Shown here one piece after another: positions 25,872 through 34,898 of a DNA stretch of 64,000 nucleotides (the first letter of the stretch is position 1; every line of letters begins with the position of its first letter). Position numbers and translations under genes: made by a program. The notes beneath the pieces were generated by a model that saw only the letters and a list, made by a program, of their open reading frames with translations, made no database searches and was not told the DNA's origin. The stretch is from Candidatus Nitrosotenuis chungbukensis (lineage in GTDB: Archaea > Thermoproteota > Nitrososphaeria > Nitrososphaerales > Nitrosopumilaceae), in contig NZ_AVSQ01000009.1 in assembly GCF_000685395.1 (NCBI RefSeq), positions 1-64,000 on the forward strand, written 5' to 3'.

Positions 25872-28800
25872 TTATTCGTAATCGGTAAGAAGTAATTGAT
25901 CGCCTTTTCTTTTACCAAATACCAAGTCTATTTCGTCCGATAAAGTGTAGATTCTTCCCCTCAGGTATGGGCCCACCTCGTATTTTTCGACGAGTCTCTT
26001 TGCAAGTTTGAGGTATTTTTCAATAGAGGGCCTAGTTATTGTCTGGATTAGATTATTTCCGCAGATGCAGTGCTGGAGCAACGGGGTTCGCCTGTATTTT
26101 CTCCCGCACGCGGTACACCTGAATTTCTGCCTCCCGTATGCCCTCAGGTTTCCAATTATATCCGGAACAAGATGTGTCGTGATGACATTTGTGACAATCT
26201 CGTTTGCGTCAACTGCGTTTATGAGTTCGGCATTTCGAATCTGCATGTCGAATTTGTCAAGCATTGATCCAAGTGTAGAGTAGGCACTCCTTGATCTTGA
26301 TGTGGTAAGAGTCGACGTGGAATGCGTGTAATGATACCCGTAGAATTGCTCATTTGTTTCAAGGCGTGATTTTATTATTTCAACGCAGGATATCTCTGAG
26401 GCCTTTTTTCCCTGGAATGTGGATTCAAAAAATTCAAGTGGAAGTTTTTTTGTCACCTCAAAGTTGTGGGCCTGCGGCTGGGATTCGTGAGGAAGAACTA
26501 TCGGTTGTATTAAAAGCGGGGCGTCCATCAAACCACCTATTTTGTCTGACAGAAACTGTCTAGAAAAATTAAGCAGTGCGTCCATCAGCAGCATTATCGA
26601 GTCGGCGTCTCCATCTGCGTCACGACGTTTTGCAGAATGCCAGTTTGGTGTGCCGTAGCAGACATGTGTTTCAGTGTAACCAATTATTCTCCCCACTATG
26701 CCAACCGATGTATGCGGCGCCAGGCCAATTACCAAATGTCCAACAAGGTCATCTATGTTTCTTACATTATAGAATGCAGATTTTCCGTAGAACTTTTCAA
26801 GTTCAATGTCAATGTACCTGCACGTCTGCACGAGATACCTTCCACTTTCAAATGGGATGATCACATCCTGCATTCTGATTTCGACGATCTGATCAGGGCT
26901 TGTCAGTGGATTTCCGTCAGCATCGTGCGTGTAGCCCAATTCCCTGAGTTTTTCAACCGATGTTCCAATCCATGACGGTTTGAAGTGAGTCAGGGGCGAG
27001 TTTGTTGCATCAAAGCGCACAGTCCCGTCCTTGAACACTGTTAGATCCAGGCTCTGACGGATGAGTCCTTTCTCAAGGGGCTCTGCTATCCTGTCCTGGT
27101 TGATTAGTTCCATCACGCCCTTGAACGGCTCTTGCACCCGTATTCCCATTTTTTCCTGCGCAAGGAGTATCTTTTGTTTCAATGGGAATGGTTTGAACGA
27201 GTGAGTTGGCGCCTTTTTCTTGCATTTTTGGCAGTATGGGGCATCAAGGTCTGATCTGCAGACGGGACAGACATAATCAGTCGATGTTCTGTTTCCGCAT
27301 TTTTGGCAGTTTATGCTAATTGACGGTTCATTGCAATTTTTGCACATGCGGTGGAAAATATTGCAGTAAAAGTCAGAAGATGCATTACTTGCCTTGAGCA
27401 GGTCACGTGTCATGCCACCCTTTTCGCCCACCGGGAATAGCGTGTGGACAGGCGGCTTCATTTGTCTTGCTGCCGCTTTTTCAGGCCTTCCGATTCTTAC
27501 TCCAATCGAGATTGAAAATTTGGGTCGTATTTTGATTCCAGATGATTCTGAGATTATTTCCGGTACGGTGTTTTGGTTTTCAAATTTGATTGGATTTGCA
27601 AACAACAACTCGTAAAATATTCGAGCCTCCATTTCCCTAAGAATCAGGTCGTCCTCTGAGACCTCATGGGGAACCCCGAGTTTCTCTAGGATTATTTTGT
27701 GTTTTTTTGGATATGTGATTGTGTCATCTGCTATGTTTGTCGGTTGCAGGATTTCTTTTAGTTCGTCAACTGAAATCTGCTCCCAATAGTACAGGTACTT
27801 TGGGTGCAGAGGAATTTTGAAGTTTAATGAGATTTCCAACGCCTCGTCAAACGACGGCGTCTTCTCCAGCTTTTCCATCCCAGAGTTTGGCTCATATTTG
27901 ATTAGTTTTTCACGCAGTTCCTCCACCCAGTATTCCTCGACGTAGCCACTTGGGAACAGTTGTGAGTTGTTCTCAAGAAAATCCCCATATGAGATTAGAA
28001 TATCGCCGAGGTGGATTATTTTGTCTATGTCATTTTTGATTCTGATGCCGTGTTCTACGTTTTGGATTTTTACCACGTTTCCGTTTTTGAGCCTGACTAT
28101 TGGGGTCTCAATGGTATCAACAAAGGCAACCGTTGCGCCCTTGCTTGGAACGTCAAGCTTTACCTGCGTGCCAACAGCTATTGTGTGGTGGAGTATTTCC
28201 GCCACCACTGGGTGCACGCCTACTGATGCAAAGCCCGTATTGCATGACCTGCCATAGCGAAGTCTGAATCCTCCAAGCTTGTTTGGCAGAGACAGGACGG
28301 ATCTGCCTGCGATCACTTCCTTGAGCCTTTTTGCGGACGCGCCCTCGTCGTCGCCTGTCTGGACTGCGCCTTTTAGCTCATTTAGCCACTCCCACCCTTC
28401 TAGGCCATACAGCTCTATTCTTTTGAGCAGTTTCTTTGATCTTCCAATCAATCCGTCGTTTAAAACCCGAAGGGCGCCTCCCCTTACACGATCAGTCTTG
28501 ATCCTAGCCATGTTTTTGTGGTTGACCACCTCGTTTGGATCAGTATCTACGCCATCAAGTTCAACAGGCAGGTTTGAAATTACTGTAACAATGTCCTCGT
28601 CAAGGACGTGAAACTGGAAACTTCCGACATCCCTCTCATAGATTCTAAGCTCCTCTACAAACCGGCCCGTTTCGTCGTCAAACGTGTTTGCCACGTATTT
28701 TGCAAGGCCTACTGCCTTTCTTACATGGTCTGCAATTAGCATCGTTACTGCGGATTCTGTCCCCCCCGCGGATCTCATCGGTCCTGCGATTGAAACTGAA

Positions 28801-29246
28801 AGATATTCAGAGCCATCCCTGTTGGTTTTGATTGTCACCTCGCTTATTCCCTGAAGCGGTGCAATTGTGACCCCTTCTGTGACTATTGCAAGGCCTACCC
28901 TTACTGCAAGGTCCAGTCTTTCTTCCAGTGATGAGTCCTCAGGCAAGTAATTTCCCAAGGCAATGCTTTTTGATAGTTCGAGGGCTGCAAGCTCCTTTCC
29001 CTTTACTTTTAACAGTTCGCGCAACGGGTCCGCTATGTCAATGTCGTGCATCTTTGCAACACGGTCGGCAAGGTCAAAGGCAATCTTTGGCTCCACTATT
29101 CCCGATGAATCCACGTGGGTCGATTTTGCTTCTGCCGCCTTTTCGAATGTCTGGTATGCCTTCTCCGATAGACGTCCATAATATTCCAGATAATAGTCAG
29201 GCATTGGAACCCCCTTAATTCGGGATATAGCCGTGTCTTCAGACAT
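25872..29246 (-). CDS. polC: DNA polymerase D large subunit (DP2)
   Basis: The 1124-residue catalytic subunit of the archaeal replicative polymerase PolD. The active-site motif RRDADGDAD supplies the metal-binding Asp residues near 930. Cys-rich zinc modules are visible near 655-715 (CKNCNEPS, CQKCGN, CPVCRSDL) and near the C-terminus (CTACGRKY, CICGNN). The RSAGGTESA region near 155 is conserved. Length shows no intein, which many archaeal DP2 genes carry. It lies two bases downstream of GGGP synthase on the same strand; the small subunit is at 33435-34862. Confidence 0.97.
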   Translation of the reverse strand: MSEDTAISRIKGVPMPDYYLEYYGRLSEKAYQTFEKAAEAKSTHVDSSGIVEPKIAFDLADRVAKMHDIDIADPLRELLKVKGKELAALELSKSIALGNYLPEDSSLEERLDLAVRVGLAIVTEGVTIAPLQGISEVTIKTNRDGSEYLSVSIAGPMRSAGGTESAVTMLIADHVRKAVGLAKYVANTFDDETGRFVEELRIYERDVGSFQFHVLDEDIVTVISNLPVELDGVDTDPNEVVNHKNMARIKTDRVRGGALRVLNDGLIGRSKKLLKRIELYGLEGWEWLNELKGAVQTGDDEGASAKRLKEVIAGRSVLSLPNKLGGFRLRYGRSCNTGFASVGVHPVVAEILHHTIAVGTQVKLDVPSKGATVAFVDTIETPIVRLKNGNVVKIQNVEHGIRIKNDIDKIIHLGDILISYGDFLENNSQLFPSGYVEEYWVEELREKLIKYEPNSGMEKLEKTPSFDEALEISLNFKIPLHPKYLYYWEQISVDELKEILQPTNIADDTITYPKKHKIILEKLGVPHEVSEDDLILREMEARIFYELLFANPIKFENQNTVPEIISESSGIKIRPKFSISIGVRIGRPEKAAARQMKPPVHTLFPVGEKGGMTRDLLKASNASSDFYCNIFHRMCKNCNEPSISINCQKCGNRTSTDYVCPVCRSDLDAPYCQKCKKKAPTHSFKPFPLKQKILLAQEKMGIRVQEPFKGVMELINQDRIAEPLEKGLIRQSLDLTVFKDGTVRFDATNSPLTHFKPSWIGTSVEKLRELGYTHDADGNPLTSPDQIVEIRMQDVIIPFESGRYLVQTCRYIDIELEKFYGKSAFYNVRNIDDLVGHLVIGLAPHTSVGIVGRIIGYTETHVCYGTPNWHSAKRRDADGDADSIMLLMDALLNFSRQFLSDKIGGLMDAPLLIQPIVLPHESQPQAHNFEVTKKLPLEFFESTFQGKKASEISCVEIIKSRLETNEQFYGYHYTHSTSTLTTSRSRSAYSTLGSMLDKFDMQIRNAELINAVDANEIVTNVITTHLVPDIIGNLRAYGRQKFRCTACGRKYRRTPLLQHCICGNNLIQTITRPSIEKYLKLAKRLVEKYEVGPYLRGRIYTLSDEIDLVFGKRKGDQLLLTDYE

Positions 29247-31224: not shown

Positions 31225-31380
31225 ATGCCAGAAAATGAAGAATTGGTCAAGATCACGGCCACAGGAACCATATCCATACCAAAACAGTTTAGGAAATACT
31301 TGGGAATGCAGAAAGGAGATTATGTCAAAGTCGTCCTTCAGGACGATTCCATGGTTCTAAAAAGAGCTGTTATTTCCTAA
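31225..31380 (+). CDS. AbrB/SpoVT-fold DNA-binding protein
   Basis: The 51-residue protein is a single swapped-hairpin domain: KITATGTISIPKQFRKYLG, then QKGDYVKVVLQDD and a final VLKRAV strand. Such proteins dimerise and bind DNA, as transition-state regulators or antitoxins. No toxin gene accompanies it. ATG 31225 is preceded by a TATA-like tttataaat at 31191-31199, giving a leaderless start. It overlaps the convergent 31377 gene by four bases and lies about 390 bp from the replication origin region. Confidence 0.85.
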   Translation: MPENEELVKITATGTISIPKQFRKYLGMQKGDYVKVVLQDDSMVLKRAVIS

Positions 31381-31766
31381 TCGGGCCGTTTTTGTGCTAT
31401 TTTGGCTATCTGGTAAACCCACTCTCTACCGTTTCGTAGGCGGTCTATCCTGCCTTTGGTGTTAAACCTGGCCAAATATGTCGAAATTATGCTAAGTTTT
31501 ATCGGCTCGTTGTACTCATCCTCAAATTTCTCCAATAATTCAGTTGAGGTAAACTTGCCCATTGGGAAGTATTTGTCTACAATATGCCATATTTTTGCTC
31601 CAACCGAGTCTAATTGTGGCACCTCTTCCTGATCTTCAATGTTTAGTAGGTTCATCATTTCAAATATCTTCAATACCTTATCTCTAGTGATATTCCCCTC
31701 GATGTTAAAGTTGTATTTTGCACCGTCCGAGTCCTCCAAATCAATGCGTATGCGCTTCTTGGCCAT
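31377..31766 (-). CDS. Origin-adjacent protein with probable winged-helix domain
   Basis: A 129-residue basic/acidic protein beginning MAKKRIRIDLEDSDGAKY. The C-terminal half (about 70-125) looks like a winged helix: STELLEKFEDEYNEPIKLSI, then TYLARFNTKGRIDRLRNGRE and an aromatic wing end. I do not recognise a named family. Its start codon faces the GTTAAC-rich region, with two GTTAAC hexamers 14-27 bp upstream overlapping its likely promoter. Autoregulation or an origin-binding role is therefore plausible but unproven. Confidence 0.7.
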   Translation of the reverse strand: MAKKRIRIDLEDSDGAKYNFNIEGNITRDKVLKIFEMMNLLNIEDQEEVPQLDSVGAKIWHIVDKYFPMGKFTSTELLEKFEDEYNEPIKLSIISTYLARFNTKGRIDRLRNGREWVYQIAKIAQKRPD

Positions 31767-31779
31767 CGTGATCGATCGT

Positions 31780-31965
31780 GTTAACTGGTTAACAATTGAA
31801 CAGATCCTCTTAGAATTGTTAACAATTGGGGTTGTTAACGTTGACCGTATGGCTCACGCCTAGCCAATCTCTATATGTTAACAAATTAGCTTTACCTAAT
31901 TATTTGGAATTACCTTGTTCCCATGCCTGGAGTGGAAATAATGGGGTCTATCTTGGCTCGTTAAC
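31780..31965. promoter_or_regulatory. Cluster of six GTTAAC hexamers
   Basis: GTTAAC starts at 31780, 31788, 31818, 31834, 31877 and 31960. The copy at 31818 is the centre of a 14-bp palindrome AATTGTTAACAATT. Six copies of a given hexamer in under 200 bp is far above chance even in AT-rich DNA. The first two overlap the promoter of the 31377 gene. The motif is not part of the ORB boxes, so a second DNA-binding protein is implied. Confidence 0.65.
31925..31958 (+). repeat. ORB-like box 1 (direct)
   Basis: The core CTGGAGTGGAAATAATGGGG is followed by TC, four bases and TTGGCT. Box 2 repeats the same arrangement 62 bp downstream. The TGGAAA core and following G-run match the archaeal origin recognition box bound by Orc1/Cdc6. 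Confidence 0.75.
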
Positions 31966-31986
31966 ATTGTTAATGCCATTCTTCAC

Positions 31987-32020
31987 GCCTGGACTCGAAA
32001 TAAAGGGGTCAAAATTGGCT
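31987..32020 (+). repeat. ORB-like box 2 (direct)
   Basis: The core CTGGACTCGAAATAAAGGGG is followed by TC, four bases and TTGGCT, with the same spacing as box 1. The 62-bp distance to box 1 is close to six helical turns, so bound initiators would lie on the same face. Confidence 0.75.
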
Positions 32021-32066
32021 TTTCTGGCGTCTGTCTTAACAACTCCTTAACTGTTTGTTAATTACT

Positions 32067-32092
32067 CACACACCTTCATTTCCACTCTTTCT
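32067..32092 (-). repeat. ORB-like box 3 (inverted)
   Basis: Read on the minus strand the core is GAGTGGAAATGAAGGTGTG, matching GAGTGGAAATAATGGGGTC of box 1 at most positions. It faces away from the AT-rich tract at 32098-32200, while box 4 lies on the far side in the opposite orientation. Flanking inverted boxes around the unwinding element are typical of archaeal origins. Confidence 0.65.
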
Positions 32093-32201
32093 TCTTTCAA
32101 ATTTTTTTTGAAAAATAAATTAAAAATAATTAATTACGAACTAAACTACAACTACTAATTGTATTCTAAACATAACTAATTCATTGTTAAATGAAATGGT
32201 T

Positions 32202-32227
32202 ATGGACTGGAAAAATAGGTGTGTGAG
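32202..32227 (+). repeat. ORB-like box 4, at the orc1/cdc6 promoter
   Basis: ATGGACTGGAAAAATAGGTG ends six bases before the orc1/cdc6 ATG. It resembles box 2 (TGGACT.GAAA..A.GG.G). Its place over the expected transcription start suggests that Orc1/Cdc6 represses its own gene, as reported for other archaeal initiators; that is inference here. Confidence 0.6.
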
Positions 32228-32232
32228 ATTCA

Positions 32233-33438
32233 ATGAATGATGATCCTGTAGACAGACTTTTGGATGCTGCAGAAAGCGGCAAATCAATCATAAAAGACAG
32301 GAAGGTATTACATTTTACCTATCTTCCAGACGTGATTTTACATAGGAAAGATGAGCAGGAAAAGCTTACCCAATCACTACTTCCAATATTAAAACAATCA
32401 AGGCCGTCAAACATTCTGATTTACGGCAAACCTGGTACTGGAAAAACACTAGTTGTAAAAAAAATACTAACTAAAATTCAACAACGAGTAGAAAAATCAA
32501 ACTTTCCAATAAAATTGATTTATACAAACTCTAAGGACGAGACAACCCTTTATGGACTACTTGTGAGTATCGGGAGGCAACTTGGTTTAGAAAAAGAAGA
32601 CCTGCCACCAACTGGGCTGGCAACGAGCGAGGTCTTCAAACGCCTTTTAAAATCAATTGAAACAAACCAATACAACATCATACTTGTTATAGACGAAATA
32701 GACTATCTGGCGCATCTGGTGTCAAAAACCGGGAAGGACATTCTTTATCAGCTTACTAGGGCAAATGAGCGGCTAAAGAAGGGAAGCATGACGCTTGTAG
32801 GAATATCAAACGACCTTACCTTCAAAGATAGGCTTGATGGACGCGTAATCAGCTCGCTAGGCGAAGAAGAGATCGTCTTTACCAATTATGACGTTAATCA
32901 GCTAAAGGAAATCCTTCTTGATAGGATCAAGGAGGCCTTTTTGGACGATGTGGTAGAGACATCAGCACTGAACCTATGTGCTGCAATGGCAGGACGTGAG
33001 CATGGGGATGCAAGAAGGGCAATCGACCTATTGAGGGTGGCAGGCGAGATCGCCGAAAGGCAGCAATCCGAAACCGTAAGGGAAGAACACGTGAGAATAG
33101 CGTCCCAGAAAATGGAGGAGGATAAGGAGGTAACGGCTCTTAAATCATACCCGCTTCACGAAAAACTACTGATTATAGCAGTGATGAAGGCATCTGGCCT
33201 ATCCACAGGAGAAATATTTTCAGCCTACAAAAGCCTCTGCAAGGCAATACGGCAAAAAGAACTCACACAGAGGAGGGTCACCCAAATGCTTGGCGAAATA
33301 GAGATGTCTGGAATAATTTCGGGTAAGATTGTTCATCAGGGAATCCACGGAAGAACAAAAAAATTCACGCTCACCATTTCTGCTGAAACAGTGAAAGATA
33401 CTTTCAAAAACGAAGTTACTCTGGAGGATATTATCTAA
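32233..33438 (+). CDS. cdc6: Origin initiator Orc1/Cdc6
   Basis: The 401-residue AAA+ initiator binds ORB boxes and loads MCM. Walker A is YGKPGTGKT near 70-78, Walker B is VIDEID near 155-160, sensor 1 is VGISND near 190, and a basic C-terminal winged helix (about 305-390) reads RRVTQMLGEIEMSGIISGKI. ATG 32233 immediately follows ORB box 4. It converges on the PolD small subunit with a CTAA stop overlap. It is the only Orc1/Cdc6 in this window; I cannot say whether the genome has more. Confidence 0.96.
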   Translation: MNDDPVDRLLDAAESGKSIIKDRKVLHFTYLPDVILHRKDEQEKLTQSLLPILKQSRPSNILIYGKPGTGKTLVVKKILTKIQQRVEKSNFPIKLIYTNSKDETTLYGLLVSIGRQLGLEKEDLPPTGLATSEVFKRLLKSIETNQYNIILVIDEIDYLAHLVSKTGKDILYQLTRANERLKKGSMTLVGISNDLTFKDRLDGRVISSLGEEEIVFTNYDVNQLKEILLDRIKEAFLDDVVETSALNLCAAMAGREHGDARRAIDLLRVAGEIAERQQSETVREEHVRIASQKMEEDKEVTALKSYPLHEKLLIIAVMKASGLSTGEIFSAYKSLCKAIRQKELTQRRVTQMLGEIEMSGIISGKIVHQGIHGRTKKFTLTISAETVKDTFKNEVTLEDII

Positions 33439-34862
33439 TTTTTGGATGCAAAGTCTTTTGTGTAGACTTTGAAAGTTTTCAGATTAACCAAAACCACCAT
33501 TCCCGGCGTCGGCGTAATTCCAACGCTTGTCTGGAACGGTGTTTGGGCCTGCCATGCACCTGAATTTAGGATTAGGACTCCTCTGTACAGGTCTAAATCT
33601 ATGACATGGACATGGCCTCCATGGAAAATGTCTGGAACCTCATCAATCACCATAAGATCCTCCAATTCTGGCGCAATCGGGGTCTGACTGCCATAAATTG
33701 GACTCATATGCCTGGCCTTGAGCAAATACTGCATGACTTTTGCAGGCTTGTCGTAACTTAATCCAGGCGTGGTCTTTACAATATCATCGATGCTCTGACC
33801 GTGGAAAATGAGCACCTTTACCCCATTTAGTGAAACCATTGCCGGATTGCCAATCATGAAAAAATTCTTCCTGCCCCAGAGGTTTGGGTTGTATTTTGCA
33901 GGAATTGCAGGCTGCGGGAGAGCGCGTCTTCCCGGATCGTGGTTTCCGGGCGCTATGAAGACCTTGATATGTTTTGGAATCTTATCCAAAATGTCAAACA
34001 CCATCTGGAGTTGCGCGCTTGTGTCAAGGGCCACTAGCTCCTTGTCCTGGTTTGGGTAGATTCCAATCCCGTCCACCACGTCGCCGCCCAGGACTATGAA
34101 TCTCACTCTTCGCGCGATTGGATCTGGGCTTGAAAGCCACGAAATCATCTCTAGGAACTCTTTTTCCATAAAGTACTTGCTGCCTATGTGAAGATCGGAC
34201 AAAAAGAGGGCATAAGTCTCGGTTTTTGAGCGGTTTGGCAGATGATCCGGAATATCAGGCAAAATGATGTCCTTGACAATAAAGCCGCCGTTCTTTGCCG
34301 CTACGATTTTTTCCATAATAAATTGGTCCATCAGCAAGGAAGACGCCACACTTTGCAGATCTTCGTCAATAACTATGGTCTCAATCGAACCTGTAATGTC
34401 ATCTATGGTTATCTTGGTTATGTTTCTGTCCGTTTTTCTGTCCGTTACAAGGCCGCAGACATAGATTTCCTCCTTTGATTTGGTTGAAATCACTGCTGAG
34501 ATGGATTTGAGCATTTTTGATTCTGGACGGTTTGATATGATTTTCTTTAGTTTGGCATACCTGCTTGAGAATAACGCAGTAAAGCCGTCAACTCCCTCAG
34601 CTGTGGCAATCTTTGTGGTTGGATCAAATAGAATTTCGTGAAAATCGTCTAGAATTTCATCTTCTGCGATTCCCAAAAATACCTCAAGATCCTGCTGGCT
34701 AATCAGGAACAGTTTCTGCCTTTCTTTTTCTCGAACAACCTGCTTGATGATTTTCTCTAATTCCTTCACATCTATCTGCTCTAGAATTCTGAGTGCGTTT
34801 GGATGGATCTGAAAGCCCTTGTTTAATGCAAAATCTAACGCAGAACTGACATCCCTTATCAT
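33435..34862 (-). CDS. polB: DNA polymerase D small subunit (DP1), 3'-5' exonuclease
   Basis: From ATG 34862 the protein has 475 residues. The N-terminal third holds a helical and OB-fold region. The C-terminal Mre11-like nuclease has FLSDLHIGSKYF, LGGDVVDG, APGNHDPGR, FHGQ and FHGGHVHV, the full metal set, so proofreading should be intact. A TATA-like tttaattaaa near 34886-34895 is about 28 nt from this ATG; a TTG at 34883 is an alternative. Together with 25872-29246 it makes the complete PolD. Confidence 0.95.
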   Translation of the reverse strand: MIRDVSSALDFALNKGFQIHPNALRILEQIDVKELEKIIKQVVREKERQKLFLISQQDLEVFLGIAEDEILDDFHEILFDPTTKIATAEGVDGFTALFSSRYAKLKKIISNRPESKMLKSISAVISTKSKEEIYVCGLVTDRKTDRNITKITIDDITGSIETIVIDEDLQSVASSLLMDQFIMEKIVAAKNGGFIVKDIILPDIPDHLPNRSKTETYALFLSDLHIGSKYFMEKEFLEMISWLSSPDPIARRVRFIVLGGDVVDGIGIYPNQDKELVALDTSAQLQMVFDILDKIPKHIKVFIAPGNHDPGRRALPQPAIPAKYNPNLWGRKNFFMIGNPAMVSLNGVKVLIFHGQSIDDIVKTTPGLSYDKPAKVMQYLLKARHMSPIYGSQTPIAPELEDLMVIDEVPDIFHGGHVHVIDLDLYRGVLILNSGAWQAQTPFQTSVGITPTPGMVVLVNLKTFKVYTKDFASKN

Positions 34863-34898
34863 GATGAAGGTTTCATAAAACAAGTTTTAATTAAATCT

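Follow-up and report, generated by a model that had tools for sequence, protein, structure and literature searches.

The gap at positions 31767-32232 of the window, i.e. of the whole 64,000-nucleotide (64-kb) stretch of DNA that was analysed, raises the question of whether Orc1/Cdc6 is the only protein reading this archaeal replication origin. In the usual description, an archaeal origin consists of ORB boxes and an unwinding element, and Orc1/Cdc6 is its reader. The sequence-only reading of the same 466 bp recognised an origin of this type, and its inventory of boxes omitted both 12 TTMACA/TGTKAA boxes and the divergent gene of a winged-helix (wHTH) protein. We consider it quite probable that two systems organise this origin, Orc1/Cdc6 acting on the ORB boxes and the wHTH protein on the TTMACA boxes. 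The grounds are computational: the boxes, their conservation, the linkage of the two genes, the co-occurrence of protein and boxes, and the covariation between one residue and one base.

The gap of 466 bp separates two divergent genes. On one side lies the unannotated, origin-linked wHTH gene (31377..31766, minus strand, 129 aa), and on the other the orc1/cdc6 initiator gene (32233..33438, plus strand, 401 aa; Cdc6_lid and Cdc6_C; TIGR02928). No other Cdc6_C match exists in the genome, which comprises 1.76 Mb in 24 contigs. A gene resembling the small subunit of DNA polymerase D (DP1; 33435..34883, minus strand; DNA_pol_E_B and Metallophos) converges with cdc6. The best matches of the wHTH gene suggest the genome of a Nitrosotenuis-like, ammonia-oxidizing archaeon. 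The divergent, adjacent arrangement of wHTH gene and cdc6 is found in all 76 named genomes having cdc6 on the contig, with a median gap of 483.5 bp (range 456-818); in the other four of the 80 named loci with a wHTH gene, the contig extends only about 120-520 bp upstream. Outside the class, the same arrangement is seen in 31 of the 59 genomes read, only a short stretch having been read for some of the remaining 28.

Several features of this gene neighbourhood can be mentioned in passing. In G007 (L007), G005 (L030), and G042 and G056 (L042, L043), an extra small open frame lies between the origin boxes and cdc6; the gap is then 790-1241 bp long and the boxes are retained. An AbrB/MazE-antitoxin-like small frame (31225-31378, plus strand; MazE_antitoxin, E 2.2e-8) terminates at the wHTH gene's 3' end. 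Both PolD subunits are encoded less than 7 kb from the origin (25872-29246 and 33435-34883, both on the minus strand), which resembles the replication islands reported in other archaea in the accessible text of PMC2643942.

The ORB boxes themselves are those described by the sequence-only reading. Boxes 1 (31922..31958) and 2 (31984..32020), both on the plus strand, are direct repeats of 37 nt and share 81% identity. The inverted box 3 (32065..32087, minus strand) and box 4 (32205..32227, plus strand), which lies beside cdc6, form a 23-nt inverted pair with 83% complementarity, separated by 117 nt. These 117 nt (32088..32204) constitute the putative duplex unwinding element. Boxes 3 and 4 do flank this tract; it had been called nearly pure A+T, and the measured value is 82%, a richness that is equalled in just 0.03% of the 117-bp windows of the 64 kb. 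Boxes 1 and 2 are the only perfect matches genome-wide to the ORB-like pattern TGGANTNGAAATNNNGGGGTC. When up to three mismatches are allowed, there are 12 matches in the 1.76 Mb genome, box 4 having three mismatches; the pattern at this threshold is uninformative by itself, because its reversed control gave 11. ORB repeats flanking an A+T-rich tract are thus found here, as in archaeal cdc6-linked origins.

Comparison with relatives was the check proposed for these boxes, and both the boxes and their arrangement are indeed kept upstream of cdc6. Among the 76 named relatives, 59 have two direct ORB-like boxes, 13 have a single one and 4 lack them, so that 72 in all retain at least one; together with the adjacency of cdc6, this supports the origin with its unwinding element. 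The TTGGCT word, which had been proposed as a possible lineage-specific extension, does follow boxes 1 and 2; it was rejected as a part of the box since only 11 ORB boxes out of 27 within the genus, and 8 out of 133 among the named relatives, are followed by it. The GC skew, sampled in 20 kb pieces of three complete relatives (G009, G012, G013), changes sign across the origin and shifts the same way between the replichores of each; the p values are 0.006, 0.099 and 0.157, so that only one is significant singly, and in two of the three genomes the best skew split coincides with the origin. Of the two sides of the origin, the plus-coordinate one has the lower skew in these genomes, and the cumulative skew therefore peaks at the origin, with no minimum. 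In most bacteria the cumulative skew has its minimum at the origin.

A single cdc6-linked origin was reportedly described in Nitrosopumilus maritimus by Pelve et al. in 2013. The accessible parts of later accounts give one mapped origin in this species (PMC4010727, PMC5333045), with ORB repeats lying ahead of the cdc gene (PMC5797428), as in the present locus. That the gap is a chromosomal replication origin thus appears well supported by comparison, given the 76 linked loci, the ORB boxes and the N. maritimus precedent, and weakly by skew, given the p values. This cdc6-linked ORB origin type is already known; the novel part consists of the TTMACA boxes and the divergent wHTH gene, neither of which is mentioned in the accessible parts of the N. 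maritimus accounts (PMC4010727, PMC5333045, PMC5797428). No description of the boxes or of the wHTH protein was found in the literature accessible without subscription, which excludes Pelve 2013, nor any paper in the same literature bringing together TTAACA, a replication origin and archaea.

The TTMACA/TGTKAA box cluster spans 31779..32061. Strict boxes start at 31779, 31789, 31817, 31819, 31833, 31876, 31878, 31961, 31968, 32036 and 32056, and a further one at 32185. Twelve boxes in the 466-bp gap compare with a mean of 0.50 per 466 bp over the 64-kb window, in which all the top-ranked 466-bp windows for box count overlap the origin. Only the box at 32185 lies inside the unwinding tract (32088-32204), the other 11 being outside it. 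The main array is located about 170-450 bp upstream of cdc6, past the unwinding tract, and it is interleaved with ORB1 and ORB2, between which two boxes form a palindromic pair, TTAACA-N-TGTTAA (31961..31973). Across 18 genera of the family, no 6-mer of the gap exceeds TTAACA/TGTTAA in enrichment, with 158 occurrences observed and 16.7 expected from dinucleotide-preserving shuffles; this word is present in all 18 genera and ranks above the ORB words. Other lineages carry TTCACA in place of TTAACA.

An ordinary archaeal origin, with ORB boxes only and the remaining repeats belonging to the A+T-rich background, would fit the origin type known in N. maritimus and the base composition of the region. 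The dinucleotide-preserving shuffles, which keep this composition, nevertheless fail to yield the boxes, and the box base shifts together with a protein residue, as detailed below; such an origin is thus a very improbable description of the locus. The shorter GTTAAC was tried as a motif and rejected, its density in the 64 kb not exceeding that of the shuffles (10 against 12.8); it is the wider TTMACA that is conserved. Six of the 10 GTTAAC copies in the window lie within 180 bp of the origin. Triples of TTAAC in the organism's own genome gave five rows, four of them at the origin and one elsewhere, and, against counts of 19 and 23 for the reversed control, can be called rare.

Three of the box motifs close to ORB3 build a 26-bp tripartite element, TTMAC-N6-TTMAC-N5-GTKAA (32036..32061, plus strand), with conserved spacing: two direct boxes 11 bp apart are followed by an inverted one. 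Among 46 genomes searched whole, this spacing occurs in 18, each time at the cdc6 origin and nowhere else, a result to be read with the fact that the exact spacing was picked after matches had been seen. Twelve further matches in these 46 genomes have another spacing, one being at the origin and 11 elsewhere. When the gaps are left free (2-7), 34 rows are obtained versus 18 for the reversed control, and 19 of the 30 distinct places are at the origin. In the 76 named origins, the element is exact in 50 and within one mismatch in 57, versus none of 76 within one mismatch in the shuffles; 16 origins need three mismatches and one needs four.

What could read these boxes? The wHTH protein encoded across the gap is widespread: 52 of 61 relatives have it, as do 185 of 200 genomes of the class and 131 of 200 genomes of a phylum sample, the last figure corresponding to 98 of 167 outside the class. 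Of the 15 class genomes without it, 13 were searched for Cdc6 (all but G126 and G209), and 12 of these gave no strong match either, which suggests that the locus is probably missing from their assemblies. The window protein has no Pfam match at E<=0.001. At E<=1, 26 of the 30 members aligned show a weak similarity to Penicillinase_R (BlaI), the best with E 1.1e-7; the window protein itself scores 13.5 bits, below the gathering cut-off of 22.6. NCBIfam gave only CopY_TcrY (E 0.0048, far below the family cut-off), and a PDB profile search nothing below E 0.06. The structure model (pLDDT 79.8, pTM 0.53) has an N-terminal beta-hairpin and helix, followed by a C-terminal winged helix (55-120) with a predicted recognition helix at 91-103. 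A fold search limited to residues 51-124 retrieved many winged helices, the best being Fur (Z 10.6, 70 residues, rmsd 2.0), and MecI and BlaI are among the Foldseek matches at E about 0.01.

BlaI, MecI and CopY (Penicillinase_R) share with this system a winged helix, an ACA/TGT site core and a variable base before the core. They differ from it by the weak sequence similarity, by the position of the winged helix, which here forms the C-terminal half behind an N-terminal part of another kind, and by the linkage to an origin. The CopY-type site is RNYKACANNTGTMRNY, with a variable base ahead of ACA according to the accessible text of PMC7253601. The binding chemistry looks plausible, since it is this same base that tracks a recognition-helix residue here, and the wHTH protein most likely binds the TTMACA boxes.

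The distribution of protein and boxes agrees with such a pairing. All 97 linked genomes, in which both genes flank the gap, have at least three boxes each (797 in total). In comparison, 20 genomes with a strong Cdc6 match, in which the wHTH protein was not found, contain 11 boxes upstream of cdc6 for 16.0 expected. These 20 remain from 27 protein-negative genomes with a strong Cdc6 match, seven having been dropped because the upstream stretch was too short. A Cdc6 search of 41 genomes gave 27 strong matches, some of which were used further. The covariation set initially held 144 rows (143 genomes), from which 47 were dropped, cdc6 being absent from the fetched stretch.

The base before ACA depends on the family, giving either TTAACA or TTCACA, and it varies with residue 93 of the wHTH protein, which sits in the predicted recognition helix. 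With Ile, Val, Leu or Ala at this position, TTAACA is in excess in 53 of 54 genomes; with Thr, TTCACA is in excess in 39 of 43, with two ties. The pattern was first seen in about 45 genomes and then tested on 52 newly fetched ones, which follow it in 25 of 26 and 24 of 26 cases. Exceptions and ties amount to five of the 97 genomes (G079, G254, G266, G251, G218). Phylogenetic regression on the wHTH tree, with column 93 masked, ranks residue 93 first of 506 residue states (LR 27.3, p 1.7e-7), ahead of state M at residue 6 (LR 18.7); with lambda fixed at 1, i.e. strict Brownian motion, the association is weaker (p 6e-4). Independent switches are few, Fitch counts being five for residue 93 and four for the box type. 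On a Cdc6 tree of 60 genomes with near full-length Cdc6, residue 93 again comes first (LR 37.3), out of 1,597 states of which 437 are from the wHTH protein and 1,160 from Cdc6; the runner-up is wHTH residue 111 (LR 14.6).

These data bear on the possibility that another protein, either a nucleoid protein or Cdc6 itself, reads the boxes, with the wHTH gene merely a linked neighbour. Linkage alone could be inherited, and binding by the wHTH protein is itself deduced from comparison. The covariation, however, peaks in the recognition helix of the wHTH protein, with no Cdc6 state above LR 12.1, and genomes having cdc6 without the wHTH gene show no box enrichment. Residue 93 also fits the box type in six genomes where the two genes lie apart. 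Another reader is thus improbable, and the wHTH protein is retained as the candidate.

In four of these six genomes (G238, G360, G231, G295) the wHTH gene and cdc6 share a contig, at a distance of 19 to about 500 kb, and in two (G335, G258) they are on different contigs. All six show box enrichment upstream of cdc6, with TTCACA:TTAACA counts of 6:5, 5:0, 5:1, 3:1, 5:0 and 6:1, and all six proteins have Thr93, matching the TTCACA excess. The other nine of the 15 unlinked genomes (G220, G306, G268, G319, G276, G242, G284, G235, G347) show no clear box enrichment at cdc6; their homologues are mostly weaker ones, and greater distance between homologues is the sole explanation offered. Remote homologues and no boxes are seen in the genomes with the handles f26, f45, f47 and f52. 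As a separate observation, residue 93 is Met in the genomes of family f2, G037, G108, G121 and G177 (L320, L336-L338), in which neither cdc6 nor a box array lies within 1 kb upstream of the wHTH gene; the tripartite element is retained beside cdc6 in G037 and G053.

The main rival is a purely transcriptional role, the TTMACA boxes being operators at which a BlaI/CopY-type repressor would control its own gene as well as cdc6, and replication being affected through Cdc6 levels only. The winged helix is indeed BlaI-like, and the first boxes lie in the upstream region of the wHTH gene. The boxes also stay upstream of cdc6 when the wHTH gene is elsewhere, as an operator of cdc6 would. Against this, the main array sits among ORB1 and ORB2, on the far side of the unwinding tract from cdc6, and the tripartite element keeps near ORB3 (median distance 22 nt, range 6-305, in 49 origins). 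An operator travelling with the wHTH gene was considered and rejected: upstream of nine unlinked wHTH genes that were tested there are 12 boxes for 8.2 expected, so autoregulation through TTMACA boxes does not look general. We regard the purely transcriptional role as rather unlikely and conclude, from sequence comparison, that the array belongs to the origin and not to one promoter. Part of it may still be an operator, because the boxes also cover the wHTH promoter.

An origin with two systems could work as follows. Orc1/Cdc6 would bind the four ORB boxes, with the unwinding tract enclosed between ORB3 and ORB4. The wHTH recognition helix would contact the interleaved TTMACA boxes, residue 93 reading the variable base, and the protein would most probably coat the ORB1-ORB2-ORB3 shoulder as an ordered array, in which the conserved 26-bp element, with its 11-bp repeat, abuts ORB3. 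The wHTH array would then probably either build or restrain the Orc1 complex that loads MCM, and the protein would also control its own promoter, lying under the first boxes.

A winged-helix protein tied to an origin is also known from Sulfolobus oriC3, where the accessible text of PMC5333045 describes WhiP. Compared by description, WhiP is a Cdt1 relative that replaces Orc1/Cdc6 at its own origin, whereas Cdc6 and the ORB boxes are kept here. In Caulobacter, CtrA sites of the form TTAA-N7-TTAAC are found at the chromosomal origin. The likeness lies in TTAAC-type boxes controlling an origin; CtrA is a bacterial response regulator, and the resemblance goes no further.

The nearest precedent is probably ucm/UBP at Sulfolobus oriC1, where the accessible text of PMC12141716 likewise describes, beside the ORB boxes, another conserved motif that is recognised by a small sequence-specific protein. 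There, ucm is embedded in the unwinding element, and UBP, which contacts DNA through beta-hairpins, has more than 300 chromosomal sites and is reported to be recent in Sulfolobales and Desulfurococcales (PMC12141716, same parts). In contrast, the present array is multi-copy and mainly outside the unwinding tract, a motif midway in this element not being found with 11 of 12 strict boxes beyond 32088-32204, and the protein is predicted to be a winged helix. The best reading is that the two systems are analogous and probably not homologous, the wHTH protein being set apart from UBP by description.

It seems likely, with slightly less assurance than for the locus itself, that a second origin code extends across much of the phylum: TTMACA boxes and tripartite element, an unnamed wHTH reader with a co-evolved residue 93, ancestral to several classes and a counterpart of UBP. 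If true, the parts list of origins would change for much of the phylum, and a handle on the control of single origins would be gained. The UBP authors ask, in the accessible text of PMC12141716, whether other lineages have analogous proteins; a second origin-binding factor of this kind would be the counterpart they seek. Ammonia oxidizers, and other classes too, are thereby given a candidate gene and a site, down to one putative contact between residue and base.

A third conserved motif is seen at the wHTH end of the gap, GATCGATC beside TTGAAC-N-GATCC (31772-31812, and in the gaps of relatives). Similar GATC/TTGAA elements lie between box 4 and cdc6 in several genera, and GATCGA, ACGATC and CGGATC are within the 40 most enriched 6-mers of the gap.
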